The position numbers and the translations under genes are program-made. Under the pieces are notes generated by a model. It ran no database searches, was not told where the DNA came from, and saw only the letters and a program-made list of their open reading frames with translations. A stretch of 64,000 nucleotides of DNA from Mycobacterium sp. SMC-8. GTDB taxonomy: Bacteria > Actinomycetota > Actinomycetes > Mycobacteriales > Mycobacteriaceae. Location: assembly GCF_025263565.1 (NCBI RefSeq), contig NZ_CP079865.1:2604001-2668000 (forward strand), written 5' to 3'. This document shows, one piece after another, positions 1 to 13,203 of this stretch (position 1 is the stretch's first letter; every line of letters begins with the position of its first letter).

Positions 1-2843
1 GCATCGCCAGCCTCGGCGGCGCCACCCTGGACAACGAAGAGAACTATCTGATCAAGAAGCTGTTCACCGCGCTGGGCGCCCTCCAGATCGAGAACCAGGC
101 GCGTATTTGACACAGCGCCACGGTTCCCGGTCTGGGAGCCTCCTTCGGTCGCGGCGGGGCGACGGACTACCAGCAGGATCTCGTCAACTCGGACTTCATC
201 GTCATCATGGGCTCCAACATGGCCGAAGCTCATCCGGTGGGATTCCAGTGGGTGATGGAGGCCAAGGCGCGGGGCACCGGCGTCGTGCACATCGACCCGC
301 GGTTCACCCGCACCAGCGCGCTCGCCGACCGGCACGTGCCGCTGCGCGCCGGAAGTGACATCGCGTTCCTCGGCGGCGTCATCAACTACATCCTGAGCAA
401 CGAGCTGGAGTTTCGCGAGTACGTCACCGCGTACACCAACGCGCCGTTCCTCGTCGACGAACGCTTCGCCGACACCGAGGATCTCGACGGTCTGTTCTCC
501 GGCTACGACGACGTGACCGCCTCCTACGACCCGTCGACGTGGCAATACCAGAACACCGGTGCGCAGGAGGGCGGCGCCGAGGCCAAGGAGCAGAGCGCCG
601 GTGACCGCTACGGGTCCGGCGGCCCGCCGATCGAAGGCGGCGCCGGCGACATCCCCAGCGATCCCACGCTGCAGCATCCCCGGTGCGTCTACCAGGTCCT
701 CAAGCGGCATTACGCCCGCTACACCCCGGAGATGGTCGAGCGGGCGTGCGGCATCCCCGCCGACGTGTTCCTCGAGGTGGCGCGCGCGTGGACGGAGAAC
801 TCAGGCCGCGAGAAGACCGCCGCGCTGGTGTATTCGGTTGGCTGGACTCAGCATTCGGTGGGCGCGCAGTTCATCCGGGCCGGGTCGATCATCCAGCTGC
901 TGCTCGGCAACATCGGCCGCCCCGGCGGCGGGGTGTTCGCGCTGCGCGGGCATGCCAGCATCCAGGGCTCGACCGACGTACCGACGCTGTTCAACCTGCT
1001 GCCCGGATACCTGGCGATGCCCCATGCCGGCGAGGAGACACTGGCCGACTACCTCGGCGGCATCAAGAGCCGAAACCAGAAGGGCTTCTGGCGCAATGCC
1101 GACACCTACATGGTGTCGCTGCTCAAGGAGTACTGGGGCGAGGCGGCCACCGCGGACAACGACTACTGCTTCGACTACCTGCCCCGCATCAACGGCGACC
1201 ACGGCACCTACCGCACCGTGATGGACATGGTCGACGGCAGGGTGTTCGGCTACTTCCTGCTCGGCCAGAACCCCGCGGTCGGGTCGGCGCACGGACGGCT
1301 GCAGCGGCTCGGCATGGCCAACCTCGACTGGCTGGTGGTGCGCGACCTCGTCGAGATCGAGAGCGCCACCTTCTGGAAGGACGGACCCGAGATCGAGACC
1401 GGCGAGGTCTCGCCGCAGACCTGCCGCACCGAGGTGTTCCTGCTCCCGGCTGCGTCGCACGTCGAGAAGGCCGGCACGTTCACCCAGACCCAGCGCATGC
1501 TGCAGTGGCGGGAGCAGGCCGTGCAACCGCCGGGCGACGCGCGCAGCGAGCTGTGGTTCTTCTACCATCTGGGCCGCATCCTGCGCGAAAAGCTGGCCGC
1601 CTCAACCGATCCCCGTGACCGGCCGCTGCTGGACCTGTGGTGGGACTACGAACTCGACGGTGACGAGCCGTCCGCTGCGGACGTGCTGCGCCGCATCAAC
1701 GGTGTGGACCTGACCACCGGCCGGGCGGTGAACAGTTACACCGAACTTCAGGCCGACGGCTCCACCGCGTGCGGCTGCTGGATCTACAGCGGGGTGTACG
1801 CCGACGAGGTGAACCAGGCCGCCCGCCGAAAACCGCACACCGAACACCGCCGGCAGAGCCGGCAATCAGACGAGGGCCCCTACGACCACGAGTGGGGCTG
1901 GACGTGGCCGCTGAACCGGCGCGTGCTCTACAACCGGGCGTCGGCCGATCCGCAGGGCCGGCCGTGGAGCGACCGCAAGAAACTGGTGTGGTGGGATCCG
2001 GACAAGGGGGAGGCCGGCGAGTGGACCGGGCACGACGTCCCCGATTTCGAGAAGACCAAACCGCCGGACTACTATCCCGAGCCCGGCGCGGTCGGTGTGG
2101 AGGCGCTGCGCGGCGACGACGCGTTCGTGATGCAGGCCGACGGCAAGGGGTGGCTGTTCGCGCCGAACGGGGTGGTCGACGGCCCGCTGCCGACGCACTA
2201 CGAGCCGCACGAGTCCCCGGTGCGCAACCCGCTGTATCAGCAGCAGAGTAATCCGGCGCGCAAAGTGTATGGGCGAGCCGACAATCCGTCGAACCCGTCC
2301 TGGCCGGACGCGCACGGGGAGGTGTTCCCGTTCGTGTTCACCGCGGCCCGGCTGACCGAGCATCACACCGCCGGCGGGATGAGTCGGCAGCTGCCGTACC
2401 TGGCCGAGCTGCAGCCGGCGCTGTTCGTCGAGGTGTCACCCGAACTGGCGCGGGTCCGCGGATTGACGCACATGGACTGGGCGCACGTGGTGACCAGCCG
2501 CGCCGCCGTCGACGCCCGGGTGTTCGTCACCGACCGGATGCGCCCGCTGCACGTCGAAAACCGTGTGGTGCACCAGATCTGGTTGCCGTACCACTGGGGC
2601 CACGCGGGCCTGGTCGACGGCGACGTCGTCAACGATCTGCTCGGTGTCGTCGCGGACCCGAACGTCTTCATCCAGGAGAGCAAGGTCGCCACCTGTGACA
2701 TCCAGCCCGGCCGCCGCCCGCGTGGCCCGCTGCTGCTGGAGTACCTGCGCGAATACCGCGACCGCGCGCATATCACCCCGTCGACCGGCACCGTTCTGGA
2801 CACCACCGCGCCGTCGCGCGGCCACACTGAGGAGGCGCCATGA
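1..2843 (+). CDS. fdhA: Formate dehydrogenase alpha subunit, selenocysteine-containing (5' partial)
   Basis: This is the catalytic subunit of a membrane-associated formate dehydrogenase, oxidising formate to CO2 at a molybdenum or tungsten bis-MGD centre. The reading frame enters from the left edge (first full codon at 3) and continues through an in-frame TGA at 108-110. Translation around it gives NQARI-U-HSATVPGL, the FDH active-site signature in which Sec (U) is followed by a conserved His. The downstream sequence keeps the molybdopterin oxidoreductase fold (FGRGGATDY, GSNMAEAHPVGFQW, and a C-terminal dinucleotide-binding part with TAARLTEHHTAGGMSRQ). About 946 residues are present. By comparison with E. 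coli FdnG, where Sec is near residue 196, roughly 160 N-terminal residues lie outside the window. The stop overlaps the next start by 4 bp. The ATG at 207 is an internal Met, not the start. Family and Sec reading are confident; the metal is not visible. Confidence 0.93.
108..140 (+). promoter_or_regulatory. Selenocysteine UGA codon and bacterial SECIS hairpin
   Basis: The TGA at 108-110 is followed 11 nt later by a hairpin inside the coding sequence. The stem GGTTCCC (122-128) pairs with GGGAGCC (134-140): 7 pairs, one of them G-U. The five-base loop is GGTCT. From memory of E. coli fdhF, its SECIS has the same GGUCU apical element that SelB recognises, at a similar distance from UGA. This is strong evidence for programmed Sec insertion. 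It requires SelA, SelB, SelC and SelD elsewhere in the genome. Confidence 0.9.
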
Positions 2844-3772
2844 GCACCAGCGGGAAGCGCGGCCGATCGCGCGTCGGACCCACCAGTTTCTACGGGCCGC
2901 TCGACGACGTGGCCGCTGACGCCGGCTACGACGAGCACCCGCCGCGGGTCGGCTTCTTCACCGACACGTCGGTGTGCATCGGGTGCAAGGCGTGCGAAGT
3001 GGCGTGCAAGGAATGGAACGACGTGCCCGTCTCAGGAGATGGGGACGGGTTCGACCTGCTCGGCATGTCGTTCGACAACACCGGCAACCTCGGCGCGAAC
3101 TCGTGGCGGCATGTGGCGTTCATCGAGCAACCTGGCCACCCAGTCGAGGATCTGGGGATGCCGGGCTTCGAACGTCCCGGGGATGCGACCGGCGCCGAGA
3201 CCCGGCAGGACTTCCGCTGGCTGATGGCTTCGGACGTGTGCAAGCACTGCACGCACGCCGGCTGCCTGGATGTCTGCCCGACCGGCGCGTTGTTCCGCAC
3301 CGAGTTCTCGACAGTCGTTGTGCAGCAGGACATTTGTAACGGGTGCGGGTACTGCGTGTCCGGGTGCCCGTACGGGGTGATCGAACGCCGTGAAGGCGAC
3401 GGCCGGGCCTGGAAATGCACGCTGTGCTACGACCGGCTGCACGACGGTCTGGAACCGGCCTGCGCGAAAGCCTGCCCGACGGACTCCATCCAGTTCGGGG
3501 TGCTCGACGAGCTCCGCGAGCGCGCCGCGCTGCGCATCGACGAATTGCACGAGCGCGGGGTGACCGAGGCGCGGCTGTACGGGCACGACCCCGGCGACGG
3601 CGTCGGCGGGGACGGCGCTTTCTTCCTGCTGCTCGACGAACCGGAAGTGTATGGGCTGCCGCCGGATCCGGTGGTTCCCACCCGCGATGCCGGTGCGATG
3701 TGGCGCTACGCCGGGATCGCGGCGTCGGCCCTGGTCGGGGTCGTGGTGTCGGCGTTTGTGGGGCGCTCATGA
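2840..3772 (+). CDS. fdhB: Formate dehydrogenase iron-sulfur (beta) subunit
   Basis: This 310-residue electron-transfer subunit should carry electrons from the selenoprotein to the membrane subunit. Four [4Fe-4S] cysteine sets are visible: C46/49/52/56 (CIGCKACEVAC), C134/137/142/146 (CKHCTHAGCLDVC), C166/169/172/176 (CNGCGYCVSGC) and C193/196/208/212. The C-terminus (about 289-307) is a single hydrophobic segment that could anchor it to the membrane, as in FdnH-type beta subunits. The ATG overlaps the alpha-subunit TGA (ATGA), and the gene ends in another 4-bp overlap with the NrfD-like gene, so the three subunits are translationally coupled. No unusual residues were seen. Confidence 0.93.
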   Translation: MSTSGKRGRSRVGPTSFYGPLDDVAADAGYDEHPPRVGFFTDTSVCIGCKACEVACKEWNDVPVSGDGDGFDLLGMSFDNTGNLGANSWRHVAFIEQPGHPVEDLGMPGFERPGDATGAETRQDFRWLMASDVCKHCTHAGCLDVCPTGALFRTEFSTVVVQQDICNGCGYCVSGCPYGVIERREGDGRAWKCTLCYDRLHDGLEPACAKACPTDSIQFGVLDELRERAALRIDELHERGVTEARLYGHDPGDGVGGDGAFFLLLDEPEVYGLPPDPVVPTRDAGAMWRYAGIAASALVGVVVSAFVGRS

Positions 3773-4710
3773 AGGAAAAGCGCGGCGACATGGCCGTCCC
3801 GCCCGCTGATTTCCGGTCATACTACGGCCGGCAGATCCTCAAGACGCCGGTGTGGAACTGGATGATCGCGGCGTACCTGTTCGCCGGCGGGTTGTCGGCG
3901 GGCTCGGCGCTGCTGGCCGCAGGGGCCGACCTGACCGGACGCCGGCGGCTGCGGAAGGTGTCCCGGCTCGGTGCACTGGCGGGCCTGTTGGCCGGCCTGT
4001 GTTTCCTGATCGGCGACCTGGGCCGGCCCGGGCGGTTCCATCACATGCTGCGGGTGGCCAAGCCGACTTCCCCGATGAGCGTGGGCACCTGGATCCTGTT
4101 CGGCTACGGCCCGGGCGCAGGCATCGCCGCCGCCGCGGAGCTGATGCCGCGTCGTCTGCGGCGAACCTGGTTGGGCCGCCTGGTTTCTCGGCTGGCCCGG
4201 CCTGCCGGACTGGAAGCCGCCGCGGTGGCGCCGGGTCTGGCGGCATACACGGCGGTGCTGTTGTCGCACACCGCGGTCCCGGCCTGGAACGAGGCGCACC
4301 CGTATCTGCCGTTCATTTTCACCGGTTCGGCCGCGGCCGGCGGCGGCGGCCTGGGCATGCTGCTGGCGCCGGTGGCGGAGAGCGGTCCGGCGCGGCGAAT
4401 GGCGGCGACGGGCGCGGTGCTGGAGGTGGCGGCGTCGCGCACCATGGAGCGCCGGCTGGGACTGGCCGGCGAGGCCTACACCACCGGCCGGCCGCACACG
4501 CTGAGGCGGGCCTCTGAGGTCCTGACCTTTGCCGGGGCCGTCGGCGCGGTGGTGTCGGGCCGGCGCCGCTGGGCCGTCGCGCTGTCGGGGGCGGCGCTGC
4601 TCGCCGGCGCGGCGCTACAACGGTCCGGGGTGTTCGAAGCGGGCGTGGCCTCGACGAAGGACCCGAAGTACGTGGTGGTGCCGCAGCGGGAGCGTCTCGA
4701 CGCGCGCTGA
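3769..4710 (+). CDS. NrfD/PsrC-family membrane subunit of formate dehydrogenase
   Basis: This 313-residue hydrophobic protein has several membrane helices. Early segments (IAAYLFAGGLSAGSALLAAG and LAGLLAGLCFLIGDLGRPGRF) are typical of the NrfD/polysulfide-reductase membrane subunit family (PF03916), which passes electrons to menaquinone without haem. It replaces the cytochrome b gamma subunit of classical FDH-N enzymes. The start ATG at 3769 overlaps the beta-subunit stop; a second Met at 3790 is possible. The C-terminal stretch TKDPKYVVVPQRERL is soluble and follows the last helix. Context makes it the quinone-side anchor of this formate dehydrogenase; the quinone is inferred from mycobacterial physiology. 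Confidence 0.88.
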   Translation: MKEKRGDMAVPPADFRSYYGRQILKTPVWNWMIAAYLFAGGLSAGSALLAAGADLTGRRRLRKVSRLGALAGLLAGLCFLIGDLGRPGRFHHMLRVAKPTSPMSVGTWILFGYGPGAGIAAAAELMPRRLRRTWLGRLVSRLARPAGLEAAAVAPGLAAYTAVLLSHTAVPAWNEAHPYLPFIFTGSAAAGGGGLGMLLAPVAESGPARRMAATGAVLEVAASRTMERRLGLAGEAYTTGRPHTLRRASEVLTFAGAVGAVVSGRRRWAVALSGAALLAGAALQRSGVFEAGVASTKDPKYVVVPQRERLDAR

Positions 4711-4745: not shown

Positions 4746-5674
4746 GTGGAATTCGAATGTGCAGTCGTCGGTGGCGGCGCGGCCGGCCTGAGCGCGGCCT
4801 TGGTGCTGGGCCGGGCCCGGCGCACCACGATCGTCCTCGACGCCGACGACCCGAGCAATCGCGCGGCCCCGGTGATCGGTGGGCTGCTCGGCTACGACCG
4901 GCGCCCGCCCGACGAGTTCTACGCGGCCGGGCGCGACGAGCTCACGGAGTATCCGAGCGTGCAGTACCGGCGCGCGGAGGTGCTGGGCGGGCGAGCGGTC
5001 GACCGCGGGTTCGTCCTCGACGTCGACGACGGCAGCCAGGTGCACGCGCGGCGGGTGCTGCTCGCGACGGGCATGGCGTACGCGCCGCCGCAGTTGCCCG
5101 GGCTGCCCGAGCTGTGGGGCACCTCGGTCTTCCAGTGCCCGTTCTGCCACGGCTGGGAGGTGCGCGACACCCGGCTGGCCGCGCTGGCCTCCGGGGAGCA
5201 GGGAGTGCACACCGCGCTGATGCTGCGCGGCTGGAGCGACGACGTGGTGCTGCTGACCGACGGACAATCGCAGCTCGGCCCCGACGACCAGCGGCTGCTG
5301 CACGATGCCGGCGTGACTGTCGACGACCGGCGCGTCGTCGAATTGATCGGTACGGAAGGTCAATTGGAGAGCATCGCGTTCGCGGACGGGACCCGGTTGG
5401 AGCGGGACGGGCTGCTGGTCGAGGCGCCGGTGCGGCAGCGGTCGCCACTGGCCGCACAGCTGGGCGCGACGTGCACGCCGGGCCCGTTGGGCACCGAACC
5501 GCTGACGGTCGACACGATCTCGCGGACCAGTGCGGGAGGGTGTTCGCCGCCGGCGACGTCTGCACCCAGCAGCCACACATCGCCGGCGCAATCGCGTCGG
5601 GCTCGCAGGCGGCGATGATCATCGTGCAGAGCCTACTGGCCGATCAGTTCGGGTTGCCGTATCCGCCGGAGTAG
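4746..5674 (+). pseudogene. Thioredoxin-reductase-like FAD/NAD(P) oxidoreductase, frameshifted near its 3' end
   Basis: From a GTG at 4746 the product begins with an FAD-binding Rossmann motif (VVGGGAAGLSAALVLGRA). It carries FQCPFCHGWE, the CxxC signature of actinobacterial thioredoxin-reductase-like flavoproteins. The frame is continuous to about 5537 (TISRTSAGG), where the expected C-terminal motif VFAAGDVCTQQPHIAGA continues in another frame and ends at 5674 with LPYPPE. Adding one G to the run at 5536-5540 (GGAGGG-TGTTC) restores the reading, so a single base is missing. Read as given, the protein would stop at 5618 with an unrelated Arg-rich tail and lose the second half of its FAD site. 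It is either a homopolymer sequencing error or a recent inactivating mutation. It starts 35 bp after the FDH operon. Confidence 0.85.
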
Positions 5675-5695: not shown

Positions 5696-6241
5696 GTGGC
5701 GGACACGGTGTGGGAATTGGATTCCTCCGACGGTGAGCTTCGGCTGAGAACGGGTGTGACGGGCCCGGCGGCGAAGATGGGTCACCGGCTGACCATCGCG
5801 ATGACGTGGCGGGCCACCGTGCAGTGGGCAGGTGACGAGCCGGCCTCGGTGCAGCTGACGGTGGACGTCGGGAGCCTGGCGGTGCTGGGCGGCCAGGGTG
5901 GCGTCGCCGGACTGTCCGGCCCGGAGAAGGCACTGGCACGCTCCAACGCACTGAAGATCTTGGATGCGAAACGGTTCCCGCACATTGTTTTTCGGACTGA
6001 GTCGGTGGAGCGGGCCGACCTCGGCTACCGGTTGACCGGCAGGCTGGAGATCCACGGCAAGGTCCGCGACCGGGTGGTGGAGCTCCGGGTCGAGGAGGTG
6101 GGCGACCGCTGGCGGATGTCGTGCCAGGAGACGGTGCGTCATTCCGATTTCGGTCTCAAGCCCTATTCGATGATGATGGGCGCGATGAAAGTCGCCGACG
6201 AGGTGACGGTGTCGTTCACCGCGGAGCGCAAGCGCGGGTGA
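5696..6241 (+). CDS. YceI-family lipid-binding-like protein
   Basis: This 181-residue protein starts at GTG 5696. It matches the YceI family (PF04264, lipocalin-like beta barrel): an N-terminal WELDSSDGELRLRTG strand, LDAKRFPHIVFRTESVE in the middle and LTGRLEIHGKVRDRVVEL. No signal peptide is visible, so it is probably cytoplasmic. YceI proteins bind isoprenoid-type amphiphiles; the ligand here is unknown. It ends on a strong hairpin overlapping its stop codon. The 21-bp gap to the frameshifted oxidoreductase suggests possible co-transcription with it. Confidence 0.85.
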   Translation: MADTVWELDSSDGELRLRTGVTGPAAKMGHRLTIAMTWRATVQWAGDEPASVQLTVDVGSLAVLGGQGGVAGLSGPEKALARSNALKILDAKRFPHIVFRTESVERADLGYRLTGRLEIHGKVRDRVVELRVEEVGDRWRMSCQETVRHSDFGLKPYSMMMGAMKVADEVTVSFTAERKRG

Positions 6242-6372: not shown

Positions 6373-7977
6373 TCAGTCGAGTTCGCGCACCGCGAGGTAG
6401 TGCTGGGAGACCGCCGGGCCTTCGGTGTAGCGCTCGACGTTCTGCTCGATGAGCTGGTCCTGCGCGGTGAGCCGGGTGTAATGCTGGTGCATGTGCTCGC
6501 CCCAGGAGCGCACGATGAACGTCTCCACGAACGTCGACTCCTGTTCCACGCTGCGGAAGAGTCGCCACAGCGACGCCCCGGTGCGCTGCCGGGACCGGCC
6601 CAGCACCGCCATCGCGGCCAGGAACGCCTCCTCGTTCTCCGGTGCCACCCGGTAGGAGGTGATCACCAGCACCGGCCCGTCGAGCGGCTCGGGTTCGAAG
6701 AGCAGCGTCGGCTCCGGCCAGTGCGACGACGGCGTCAGATCGAGATTGCCGGTGCTGGCGTGCAGCGGCCACCACAGCAGGGACAGACCGCAGAGCACGA
6801 GCAGCGTCATGCTCACCAGCAGGCTGGTGACACTGCTGGTGGCTCCGGCGAGCACACCCCACACCAGCGACCCGATCGCCTGACCGCCCATGAAGACCAG
6901 CTGATACACCGACAACCCGCGGGCGCGCACCCATCGCGGCAGGCTGAGCTGCATTGACGCATTGAGCGTGGACAGCGTCAGCAGCCATGCGGCGCCGCCG
7001 ACCACCAGCCCCGCCACCACGGCGGCGACGTTGTGCACCAGCGCGAGCACCCCGGTGGCGACGGCGAACCCGGCCGCACCGACGATGAGCAACACGTTCT
7101 GGCCGAACCGGGCCCGCAGCCGCGACAACGCGAACGCACCGAGAACCGCGCCGACCCCGAGCGCACCGAGCAGCACACCATAGCCGGCCGAGCCGAGGCC
7201 GAGCTGGTCGCGGGCGATCACCGGCAGCAGCGCCCACACCGCGCTGGCGGGGGCGATGAACAGCACGGTCCGCAGCAGGATGCGGCGCACGACCGGGGAG
7301 CTGCGGATGTAGCGGCCGCCGGCGCTGAGCGCGGCCAGCGCCCGCTCGGGCGGGAAGTCGCTCTGCTCCGGCGGACGCCGCCACGAGACGAGCACCAGCA
7401 CGATCCCGACGAACGACACGGCGTTGAGGGCGAACACTATCGTCGGCCCGGCCACTGACACCAGTGCGCCGGCGATTGCCGGTCCGATCGCCCGGGCGCC
7501 GTTCATGCTCATGCTGCCCAACGCCGCTGCGGCCGGAATCTGATGCGGGGGAACGAGATCCGGCTGAATCGCCTGCCAGGCCGGTGCGGTGAGAGCCTGC
7601 CCGCATCCGATGAGGAACAGCAGCGTCAGCAGCACGGTCGGCGTGGTCAGCCCGGCACCGGTGAGGGTGGCGAGCAGGCCTACCCCGGCGGCCATCGCGC
7701 CCTGGGTGGCGATCAGCAGCCGGCGCCGGTCGACGAGGTCGGCCAGCACGCCGGACGGCAGCGCCAGCAGCATGACCGGCAGCGTGGTGGCGGTCTGCAC
7801 CAGCGGCACCAGGACCGCGGCGCGGGGATCGTCGACCAGCATCCATTGCGCGCCGACGGTCTGCATCCAGGTGCCGAGGTTCGAGACGAATTGCGCGATC
7901 CACAGTGCGCGGAAGATCGGCGATCGCAGCGGCGCCCATGTCGAGGTCGACTCTGTCGATGTCATCCGTCTCCCCAT
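6373..7977 (-). CDS. MFS transporter (EntS-like) with C-terminal monooxygenase-like domain
   Basis: This 534-residue protein has about twelve membrane segments. The motif LPSGVLADLVDRRRLL after helix 2 is the major-facilitator signature, and the family looks like MFS_3 (PF05977). After the last helix (about residue 410) there is a soluble tail of about 110 residues (VITSYRVAPENEEAFLAAM..FIVRSWGEHMHQHYTRLT) resembling an ABM/Dabb ferredoxin-like barrel, an arrangement known in this MFS group. The substrate cannot be read from sequence. The start is ATG 7977; an internal Met at 7965 has the better ribosome site (GGGGAG) and may be the real start. It lies downstream of the LLM oxidoreductase on the same strand, separated by 72 bp. 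Confidence 0.82.
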   Translation of the reverse strand: MGRRMTSTESTSTWAPLRSPIFRALWIAQFVSNLGTWMQTVGAQWMLVDDPRAAVLVPLVQTATTLPVMLLALPSGVLADLVDRRRLLIATQGAMAAGVGLLATLTGAGLTTPTVLLTLLFLIGCGQALTAPAWQAIQPDLVPPHQIPAAAALGSMSMNGARAIGPAIAGALVSVAGPTIVFALNAVSFVGIVLVLVSWRRPPEQSDFPPERALAALSAGGRYIRSSPVVRRILLRTVLFIAPASAVWALLPVIARDQLGLGSAGYGVLLGALGVGAVLGAFALSRLRARFGQNVLLIVGAAGFAVATGVLALVHNVAAVVAGLVVGGAAWLLTLSTLNASMQLSLPRWVRARGLSVYQLVFMGGQAIGSLVWGVLAGATSSVTSLLVSMTLLVLCGLSLLWWPLHASTGNLDLTPSSHWPEPTLLFEPEPLDGPVLVITSYRVAPENEEAFLAAMAVLGRSRQRTGASLWRLFRSVEQESTFVETFIVRSWGEHMHQHYTRLTAQDQLIEQNVERYTEGPAVSQHYLAVRELD

Positions 7978-8049
7978 ACCGGCTCCGTGGACACTGTAGG
8001 CCCGCGACTGCTTACCCGGCGAAGGGTGGGTTCACGCGTTGGGCTGCGT

Positions 8050-9117
8050 TCAGGCGCGGGATGCAGCGGCGGTCATGCCAGTCCCCGGTGGGGGCTGCAG
8101 GGTCAACCGTTGCGCGACAATGCCGTAGCGTTCGAAGCGCTCCGCGTCGGCCAGGGCGTTGTAGAGCACGATGCGGGTCGCGGTGGCGCCGTACCTGGCG
8201 GTGAGCGCGTCGGCCAGACCGTCCCACGTCGACTCGGTGGCGAACGTCGCGATGTGCTCGTCGGTGATCTGCGCGGCCATGCCCTGAAAGTCGCCGGCCT
8301 TCTGCTTCTCGCGGATGCGAGCCGTGGTGCCCTCGAAGCCGGCCTCGTCCCAGATGAACGCGTAGTTGGGTGTGCTGCCGTAAAAGCTCATGCTCGCCCG
8401 CACCAGTTCGCGCTCGCGATGCCGTTCCTCGTCGGAATCGCCGACGATCGTCATCACCGGCACGATCAGCGCCACCTCATGCGGTGATCGTCCCGACCTC
8501 GCAGCTCCCTCAGCAACTTTCGGAACGACGTGGCGCGCGATGTAGCCGGGCTCGCCGAGCGGATGCACATGCACCCCGTCGGACACCTCGCCGGCCATCC
8601 GCAGCATCCACGGGTTGACCGCGGCGATGTCGACCTTGGGATCCGGGGCGTCGATCGGGCCCGCGCTCCACTGCGGGGTGATGAAATCGAGCGTGTAGAA
8701 CTCGCCGTGATGGTCGAGGGTGCCTGTGCGGAACGCCGTGAAGCAGGCTTTGACCGCCAGCACGTAGTCCCGCAGCCGCGGACCGGGATGGGCGAACTCG
8801 GCGCCGTAGCGGCGGACCACATGGGTGCGGACCTGGGTGCCCAAACCCAGCCGGAAGTTGCCGCCCGTCGCCTCCTGGAGTTCCCACGCCGTCGCGGCGG
8901 TGACGAACGGGCTGCGCGGGAACGCCACCGCCACGCCCGTCGACAACTGCAGTCCCGGCGCCGCCTGCGCCGCCATCGCCGCGTTCAGGTAGGCGGTCCG
9001 GCCGGTTTCGGTGAACAGCAGCCCGTCGAAGCCGGCCTTCTGAGTGCGGCGTGCGAGATCGCCGGTCTGCAGGAGCGGCTGGGGAGTCGTCATCACGTCG
9101 ACATGCACCATCGGCAC
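8050..9117 (-). CDS. LLM-class F420-dependent oxidoreductase
   Basis: This 355-residue member of the luciferase-like monooxygenase superfamily (PF00296) resembles mycobacterial F420-dependent members. Features include FDGLLFTETGR near residue 35, the strand-loop LQLSTGVAVAFPRSPFVTA, and NFRLGLGTQVRTHVVRRYG, where LGLGTQ corresponds to the cofactor-binding region. The substrate is unknown. The start codon lies 26 bp after the end of the SMC-like gene on the same strand, so it could be transcribed with that operon although it has no known role in it. It occupies the place where a jetD nuclease gene would be expected in a complete Wadjet locus. Confidence 0.82.
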   Translation of the reverse strand: MPMVHVDVMTTPQPLLQTGDLARRTQKAGFDGLLFTETGRTAYLNAAMAAQAAPGLQLSTGVAVAFPRSPFVTAATAWELQEATGGNFRLGLGTQVRTHVVRRYGAEFAHPGPRLRDYVLAVKACFTAFRTGTLDHHGEFYTLDFITPQWSAGPIDAPDPKVDIAAVNPWMLRMAGEVSDGVHVHPLGEPGYIARHVVPKVAEGAARSGRSPHEVALIVPVMTIVGDSDEERHRERELVRASMSFYGSTPNYAFIWDEAGFEGTTARIREKQKAGDFQGMAAQITDEHIATFATESTWDGLADALTARYGATATRIVLYNALADAERFERYGIVAQRLTLQPPPGTGMTAAASRA

Positions 9118-12518: not shown

Positions 12519-13203
12519 GGTTGGTGTCCTCCTCGGCCGGGGTGCCGCCGCCCAACAGCAGCTCGAACTGCTGCTGCAGCTCGGTGATCACGCTGCCCGT
12601 CATCACCGCTGTGATGACGGGGGAGATGGTGTAGCTGTCCTCGTCGTCGCGGCTCTTACGCAGGATCTCCAGGCCGGCGAGCCGCGCGATCGCGGCGTCG
12701 ATGCGGCCGGCGAACGTGACCGCGTCGCGGTCGGTGTCGTTGAGCACGCCGGAGAACAGATTGTGCATCTCCTCGCGGGAGATCAGCACGCTCTGCCCGC
12801 CCGCCGCACGCATCATCTGCGCCAGGTGCAGCGCCAGGATCGAGTCGTAGGTGCCGAGCGGTTCACGGCGCAGAAGCTTGATGCCCTTGGCGGATTCGTA
12901 GCGGGCCTGCTCGACGAACGCGACGTCGGTACCGTCCACCACCCGCAGGATCAAGTCGAGCTCGGACAGCCGGACCGACAGCTGGTGGCGGTACTCGAGC
13001 ACCCAGGCGTAGATGTCGCTGTCGGTCTCGGCGCTAATGTAACGGCGGGTCAGCAGGTGCTGCAACGCCCAGCAGGCGCGGTCGGGCAGCTCGGAGGCGT
13101 CGCCGTCGAAGCGCGGGCGGCGCTGGTGCGGGGGACGGGCGGTCTGGTCGACCTGCGGCAGCGAGGAGAACGCCTCGAAGTCGGTGTCGTGTTCGGTGGT
13201 CAC
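12511..13203 (-). CDS. jetB: DUF4194 protein, JetB/MksE-type condensin accessory subunit
   Basis: This 230-residue protein is predicted to be winged-helix (KITE-like). It contains [35 protein letters not shown] and [20 protein letters not shown], features of the DUF4194 family that is the middle subunit of JetABCD and equivalent to MksE. It bridges the kleisin (JetA) and the SMC-like ATPase (JetC). Its ATG overlaps the jetA stop by 4 bp and its stop overlaps the jetC start by 8 bp, showing tight coupling. The C-terminus is acidic and variable. Assignment rests on position and family features. Confidence 0.82.

Follow-up and report, generated by a model that had tools for sequence, protein, structure and literature searches.

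The window, by which we mean the whole 64-kb stretch of DNA that was analysed, opens inside fdhA, the gene for the catalytic (alpha) subunit of a formate dehydrogenase (FDH); two further subunit genes follow it on the same strand (Table 1). According to the open reading frame list and the translation, the fdhA frame is open from base 3 to base 2843, with a single TGA codon as its sole interruption. The residues around this codon read RI-U-HSATV, with IASLGGATLDNEENYLIKKLFTALGALQIENQARI as the 5′ flank and HSATVPGLGASFGRGG as the 3′ flank, and the putative selenocysteine (Sec) and the histidine after it are U36-H37 of the partial product, aligned to X-H of PDB 1h0h. Two genes lie 3′ of the FDH operon. 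A thioredoxin-reductase-like FAD gene (4746-5674, plus strand) is divided near 5540 between two overlapping frames; its aligned pieces lie in one frame in loci L001, L004, L030 and L052, and the frameshift in the window's copy is an error or decay in this strain. A YceI-domain protein is encoded at 5696-6241 (plus strand), and DNA similarity to the same four loci (L052, L030, L001 and L004) extends through it.

Table 1. Features of the formate dehydrogenase locus, in positions of the window.
Feature	Position	Strand	Basis or remark
fdhA, formate dehydrogenase alpha (catalytic) subunit, 3′ part	3..2843	+	5′ end before window start
UGA, almost surely read as selenocysteine	108..110	+	putative Mo/W active-site ligand; role by family
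Rfam SECIS_3 (RF01989) match	105..163	+	37.5 bits, E 3.5e-6; gathering score 63 not reached
SECIS hairpin, 7-bp stem, GGUCU loop	122..140	+	fold, invariant synonymous sites, pair counts
fdhB, iron-sulphur beta subunit	2840..3772	+	TIGR01582 E 1.8e-55, 188 bits, below cut-off 334.7; PF13247
fdhC, NrfD/PsrC-type membrane subunit	3787..4710	+	PF03916 NrfD E 1.3e-20; start approximate; scanned piece 3787-4707

The alpha protein scored 1542 bits against NF041513 (NCBIfam formate_DH_Act, a short name that we read as actinobacterial), over the cut-off of 1400, and covered profile positions 151-1012 of 1067. Against TIGR01553 (FDH-N) it scored 808.4 bits for a cut-off of 814.2, the protein being cut at the window edge. 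It contains the Pfam domains PF00384 and PF01568, and its best PDB match is 1h0h (E 4.4e-174), with 1kqf also matched (E 7.9e-171). Residues 1-184 and 215-866 are aligned with 1h0h, in which the counterpart of the TGA is a residue written X. By the frames of the relatives, the full-length protein would have about 1,090 aa (~120 kDa). The segment ALRGHASIQG in the window protein is aligned to ALRGEANVQG of 1h0h; the catalytic Arg of FDH is placed in an RGQ/H motif in the available part of PMC8808070.

A scan of genome contigs returned at least 592 relatives, and the analysis used the best 80. All of these best 80, which come from several actinobacterial families, carry TGA at the Sec site (80/80), and coding similarity runs unbroken across it. 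This agreement is more than chance, and the peptide patterns used in the scan left the Sec site out. A reading made beforehand from the letters of the window (the sequence-only reading) had placed the in-frame TGA of RI-U-HSATV at the Sec position of Sec-FDHs, and the 80 relatives bear it out. Among the matches listed, the nearest named loci are those of Mycolicibacterium vaccae and M. parafortuitum; since protein identity to them is at most 92% and DNA identity ~84-88% over the longest stretches aligned, the window probably represents another species.

Directly after the UGA lies a hairpin with the stem strands GGUUCCC (122-128) and GGGAGCC (134-140) and a GGUCU loop (129-133). A 7-bp hairpin with a GGTCT loop had been claimed 19 nt past the UGA, and its first loop base is indeed the 19th after that codon. 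Folding of the RNA had been proposed as a check, and its outcome was mixed: the 7-bp hairpin forms, but its energy is no lower than that of dinucleotide shuffles (z of 0.07, -0.03 and 0.77 for three lengths, nothing unusual). Shuffles of such GC-rich DNA fold equally well, and folding energy was dropped as evidence; the case for the hairpin therefore rests on conservation rather than stability. At the gathering threshold, Rfam reported three tRNAs only and no SECIS in the whole window, and a looser search found the SECIS_3 match. This model was matched over its full length (1-59) with the hairpin and loop aligned, several of the model's pairs being non-standard in the window; locus L002 obtains the same score of 37.5 bits.

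Conservation was assessed in 81 sequences, the window and the best 80 of at least 592 relatives, a fourfold column being scored if at least 90% of the rows shared the window's fourfold amino acid. Only 3 of 255 such columns are invariant, and the three belong to the adjacent codons 42-44, CCC GGT CTG, which form the hairpin tip. The glycine codon at the tip is GGT in 81/81 sequences, yet the most frequent base in third position is C in 51 of 60 Gly columns. The stem was examined over the 60 distinct rows among the 81: pairing amounted to 92.1% of cells, compared with 87.6% in shuffles (0/500 as high), and the covariation score was 0.237, against a shuffle value of 0.140 and no more than 0.119 for slid stems. 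One stem pair in which both bases are third codon positions occurs as CG in 31 rows, UA in 19, UG in 6, GU in 3 and GC in 1, and varies mostly by compensation. Changes on both sides of a pair were less telling, since the two stem pairs that show them were equalled in 246/500 shuffles and by a slide of +3, and the 24 cells with such changes in the stem compare with 25 at a slide of +2 (60 distinct rows); the outermost pair is unpaired in 32/60 rows. An earlier pair count had used 41 rows selected by hand to be diverse: the window, L115 and 39 of the 80 loci. Such a choice could flatter covariation, and these rows did look better than the window with all 80 loci. The figures given here are those of the full set, in which pairing and the covariation score hold and the both-side changes are weaker. 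Relatedness by itself, in the absence of structure, can lift sequences above such shuffles, so the frozen codons outweigh the pair counts. As to the features by which a SECIS is judged, we find a stem-loop right after the UGA, a G in the apical loop and selection as RNA, whereas energy alone gives no support.

These results can be set against the possibility that the TGA is a true stop, arisen by point mutation, and that fdhA is a pseudogene or encodes a short protein from the ATG at 207. This ATG opens an 878-aa ORF (207-2843), which is what a plain caller would give, and the best 120 of 7996 database homologues are of matching length (822-880 aa). Yet an ORF from 207 is without the active-site Sec and all that precedes it, the same TGA is kept in 80/80 relatives from several actinobacterial families (best 80 of at least 592), and the synonymous sites right after it are frozen; a true stop is thus highly improbable. 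The lengths also bear on how such genes are annotated. The sequence-only reading had held that automated callers would start the gene at 207 and lose the active site, and, judged by length, the best 120 of the 7996 homologues do start after the UGA and are too short for the active site. The claim fails for a RefSeq fdnG on a Tsukamurella plasmid, which is full-length and spans its TGA, so current annotation can handle a Sec-FDH; NCBI also keeps NF041513 as a model for this kind of protein.

A tRNA search and comparisons of protein similarity found no tRNA-Sec, SelA, SelB or SelD within the 64-kb window. Since the window begins inside fdhA, sel genes upstream of it would be out of sight; their absence from the window is expected if they lie there, but lends that idea no support. 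The genomes of relatives are more informative. tRNA-Sec scored over cut-off in 26/26 relatives' genomes (16 of them mycobacterial) chosen from the best 80 loci. In 17 genomes, the 16 mycobacterial ones and one Amycolatopsis, selD was over cut-off throughout (17/17) and selA was matched throughout (17/17, 15 over cut-off), the two lower matches lying at a contig start (G001) and beside an N run (G014). A loss of selA from G014 was considered and rejected, as the N run (7515-8469) separates the pieces in L014 and a gap or masking can account for the partial gene. The search for sel genes that the sequence-only reading had advised therefore came out in its favour when run on the 16 named mycobacterial relatives, each of which shows tRNA-Sec and selD together with selA, matched in full or in part. 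The distance from tRNA-Sec to the FDH match that follows it is 2.8-7.9 kb in 13/16 of the mycobacterial loci; of the remaining three, L001 and L003 have less than 4 kb of upstream DNA each, and the genome of L052 has its tRNA-Sec ~10 kb before FDH. The gene order in L002 is selD (reverse), tRNA-Sec, selA, selB, fdhA. TIGR00475 proved a poor marker for selB, with matches in 26/26 genomes and in 14/14 controls (over cut-off in 10/26 and 2/14), so selA, tRNA-Sec and selD were taken as markers instead; SelB was looked at by tblastn in 15 loci. Together with the NF041513 score over cut-off and the frozen hairpin codons, the sel genes of the relatives give good support to what had been proposed for the locus, namely that a mycobacterium has a Sec-FDH and a SECIS of the bacterial type. 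As a separate observation, G011 (L011, M. helveticum) has two matches each for tRNA-Sec and selD over cut-off; the contig with the second selD also bears another selB-like match, and the genome perhaps has a second sel locus.

We also surveyed 138 genomes from the genus of G002, with match limits of E 1e-100 for FDH and E 1e-12 for selA. An FDH match was found in 69/138 genomes, with a TGA inside the match in 63, and a selA match in 63/138, 61 of them over cut-off. TGA-FDH and selA occur together in 60 genomes, TGA-FDH only in 3, selA only in 3 and neither in 72 (Fisher p 2e-31, a value that treats genomes as independent and ignores shared ancestry). Among the selA-only genomes, G046 and G093 do carry the TGA on closer look, and the Sec-site part of G127 is lost at a contig end. 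The TGA-only genomes are G107, G117 and G136. The contig of G136 breaks off inside selA; in G107 selA, tRNA-Sec and selD are unmatched, and FDH lies on a 6.5-kb contig. In G117 (L146, ~6990-7307) the start of selA abuts the end of selB without any N, while TGA-FDH, tRNA-Sec and selD are present, which possibly reflects a recent loss of Sec decoding by deletion, or else a misassembly. Four mycobacterial homologues (L149, L150, L151 and L152) have a Cys codon at the Sec site, TGC in three and TGT in one, and the GGTCT loop motif is absent from 4/4. At the limits applied, selA, tRNA-Sec and selD are all absent from the Cys-only genomes G030, G075 and G113; in the fourth Cys genome, G005, selA and a copy with TGA are present as well.

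The survey bears on a second alternative, in which a near-cognate tRNA of the usual kind (Trp, Cys or Arg) reads through the UGA without selenium. Such readthrough would fit the G107 and G117 assemblies, which are without a complete selA, and the window itself, which shows no sel genes of its genome (fdhA being cut at the window start). Against it stand the frozen hairpin codons, the selA match in 60/63 genomes with a TGA-FDH, the tRNA-Sec near fdhA in 13/16 mycobacterial loci and the occurrence of Cys versions in genomes without sel genes, and we regard it as no more credible than a true stop. Least probable of all is a sequencing or assembly error at the TGA, given that 80 other loci (best 80 of at least 592) have the same codon, even though the frameshift ~2.7 kb after the fdhA stop indicates that errors or decay occur in the window.

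From the gene, its codon, the conserved RNA element, the subunits and the sel genes of close relatives, we conclude with a probability of about 95% that selenocysteine is inserted at the UGA at 108-110 in a membrane-linked Mo/W formate dehydrogenase; the stop codon in fdhA is, in other words, almost surely selenocysteine. We predict that the hairpin just 3′ of the UGA binds SelB, and that SelB brings in Sec-tRNA-Sec, which SelA and SelD produce on tRNA-Sec. The selenocysteine would then ligate the metal and, with the His next to it and the Arg of the RGH motif, oxidise formate to CO2; electrons would pass from the iron-sulphur beta subunit to the NrfD-type membrane subunit and from there probably to menaquinone. 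Sec decoding by SelB and a SECIS, and a Mo or W site that oxidises formate, are what membership of the family predicts. We infer Sec decoding in this strain, the metal and the electron acceptor. Catalysis is likely to take place on the cytoplasmic side, on the grounds that the relatives have no convincing Tat signal: a Tat-like motif ahead of the FeS motif was seen in only 2/78 of them, both instances being doubtful and before the apparent start. Formate respiration or detoxification may be the role of this FDH.

Comparison with E. coli FdnGHI (1kqf) shows a homologous alpha subunit (E 7.9e-171) and a beta subunit with 4Fe-4S domains in both. The E. coli enzyme, formate dehydrogenase-N, presumably has its Sec at the same place. 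It has a Tat signal and a cytochrome b gamma subunit; in contrast, the membrane subunit of the window operon is of the NrfD/PsrC type, with no cytochrome b, and a Tat signal is hinted at in just the two relatives mentioned, the window's own N-terminus being missing. The best PDB match, 1h0h, is a W/Mo FDH whose residue X is aligned to the Sec site, and we take the W/Mo enzymes 1h0h, 6sdr and 8cm4 to be those of Desulfovibrio. The Desulfovibrio W/Mo FDH is soluble, whereas a membrane subunit is present in the window operon. The likeness to FDH1 of Actinomycetospora chiangmaiensis and to NF041513 comprises an alpha subunit over cut-off, the Sec site and the beta and gamma subunits that follow. 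The FDH1 cluster lists SelA and SelB in the available part of PMC7176365, and relatives of the window likewise have selA and selB near fdhA. The same part of that paper reports three Sec-FDHs in A. chiangmaiensis, a related actinobacterium, with formate removal that depended on selenite and on which tungstate was without effect. Between the window's FDH and these actinobacterial Sec-FDHs we found no difference in kind, A. chiangmaiensis being compared by description; the host here is a mycobacterium near M. vaccae and M. parafortuitum.

In the available parts of the literature, FdhA is described as among the most widespread bacterial selenoproteins (PMC1794560), fdhA often shares one operon with sel genes, and a Sec-to-Cys change in FdhA has been described (PMC1794560, PMC5029168). 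The available main text of PMC1794560, PMC5029168, PMC13188914, PMC1273633 and PMC5330540 makes no mention of mycobacteria. A 2007 survey of 191 genomes gave SelB to Mycobacterium avium and not to other mycobacteria (available part of PMC1780047), and a 2005 prediction of rare amino acids listed an FDH alpha subunit under M. avium paratuberculosis (available part of PMC1242214); the SelB and FDH alpha of M. avium are set beside the window as printed in these papers, by description. The M. avium paratuberculosis row also lists a second gene, matched to the M. tuberculosis hypothetical protein MT0536 (same part of PMC1242214). The locus is an ordinary member of a well-known kind of Sec-FDH that occurs in many actinobacteria, a good number of mycobacteria among them; Sec in mycobacteria is already in print, and knowledge of selenocysteine decoding itself is unchanged by it. 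The survey adds that roughly half of the 138 genomes sampled from the genus have the trait. Since PMC1780047 gave SelB to M. avium only, the Sec trait is wider than was known in 2007, a comparison that rests on the genomes then examined. For the study of mycobacterial metabolism, the consequence is that formate oxidation may hinge on the supply of selenium.

The mycobacterial FDHs fall into three lineages in a quick tree of 104 proteins, built by a short search without bootstrap; 102 of the proteins are different, L003 and L121 being one genome. The window's lineage has 29 rows and sits in a wider group that also includes Pseudonocardiaceae and Streptomycetaceae; some of its rows have one Amycolatopsis as neighbour. 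Another lineage with TGA, to which the plasmid copy from Tsukamurella belongs, is represented by 6 rows of ~33 such genomes, and the lineage with Cys by 4 rows. Each of the three is set apart from the other two groups by a branch with a support of 100, which suggests that FDH arrived in Mycobacterium more than once. We give even odds to the further idea that the sel genes and a UGA-containing fdhABC form a package that entered Mycobacterium at least twice, the third lineage having Cys and its Cys-only genomes being without sel genes. If this is true, mycobacteria would be a good natural series for selenocysteine gain, loss and bypass in aerobes. In G152 (L153), selA and selB are in pieces, which, as in G014, at first suggested gene loss; there is an N run at 12814-13166 besides isolated N, and the selB pieces are farther apart than expected. 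A selA fragment of this type-B genome shares 81% identity with the SelA of the type-A locus L002 over 101 residues, which hints at a mismatch with transfer of sel and fdh genes as one package. Nothing points to a plasmid origin of the window, the near search having returned two records with 8% coverage each. Plasmid 17 of Tsukamurella tyrosinosolvens (L115) carries fdnG with its TGA, the FeS subunit, nrfD, selD, selA and selB together, and is a possible vehicle for transfer.
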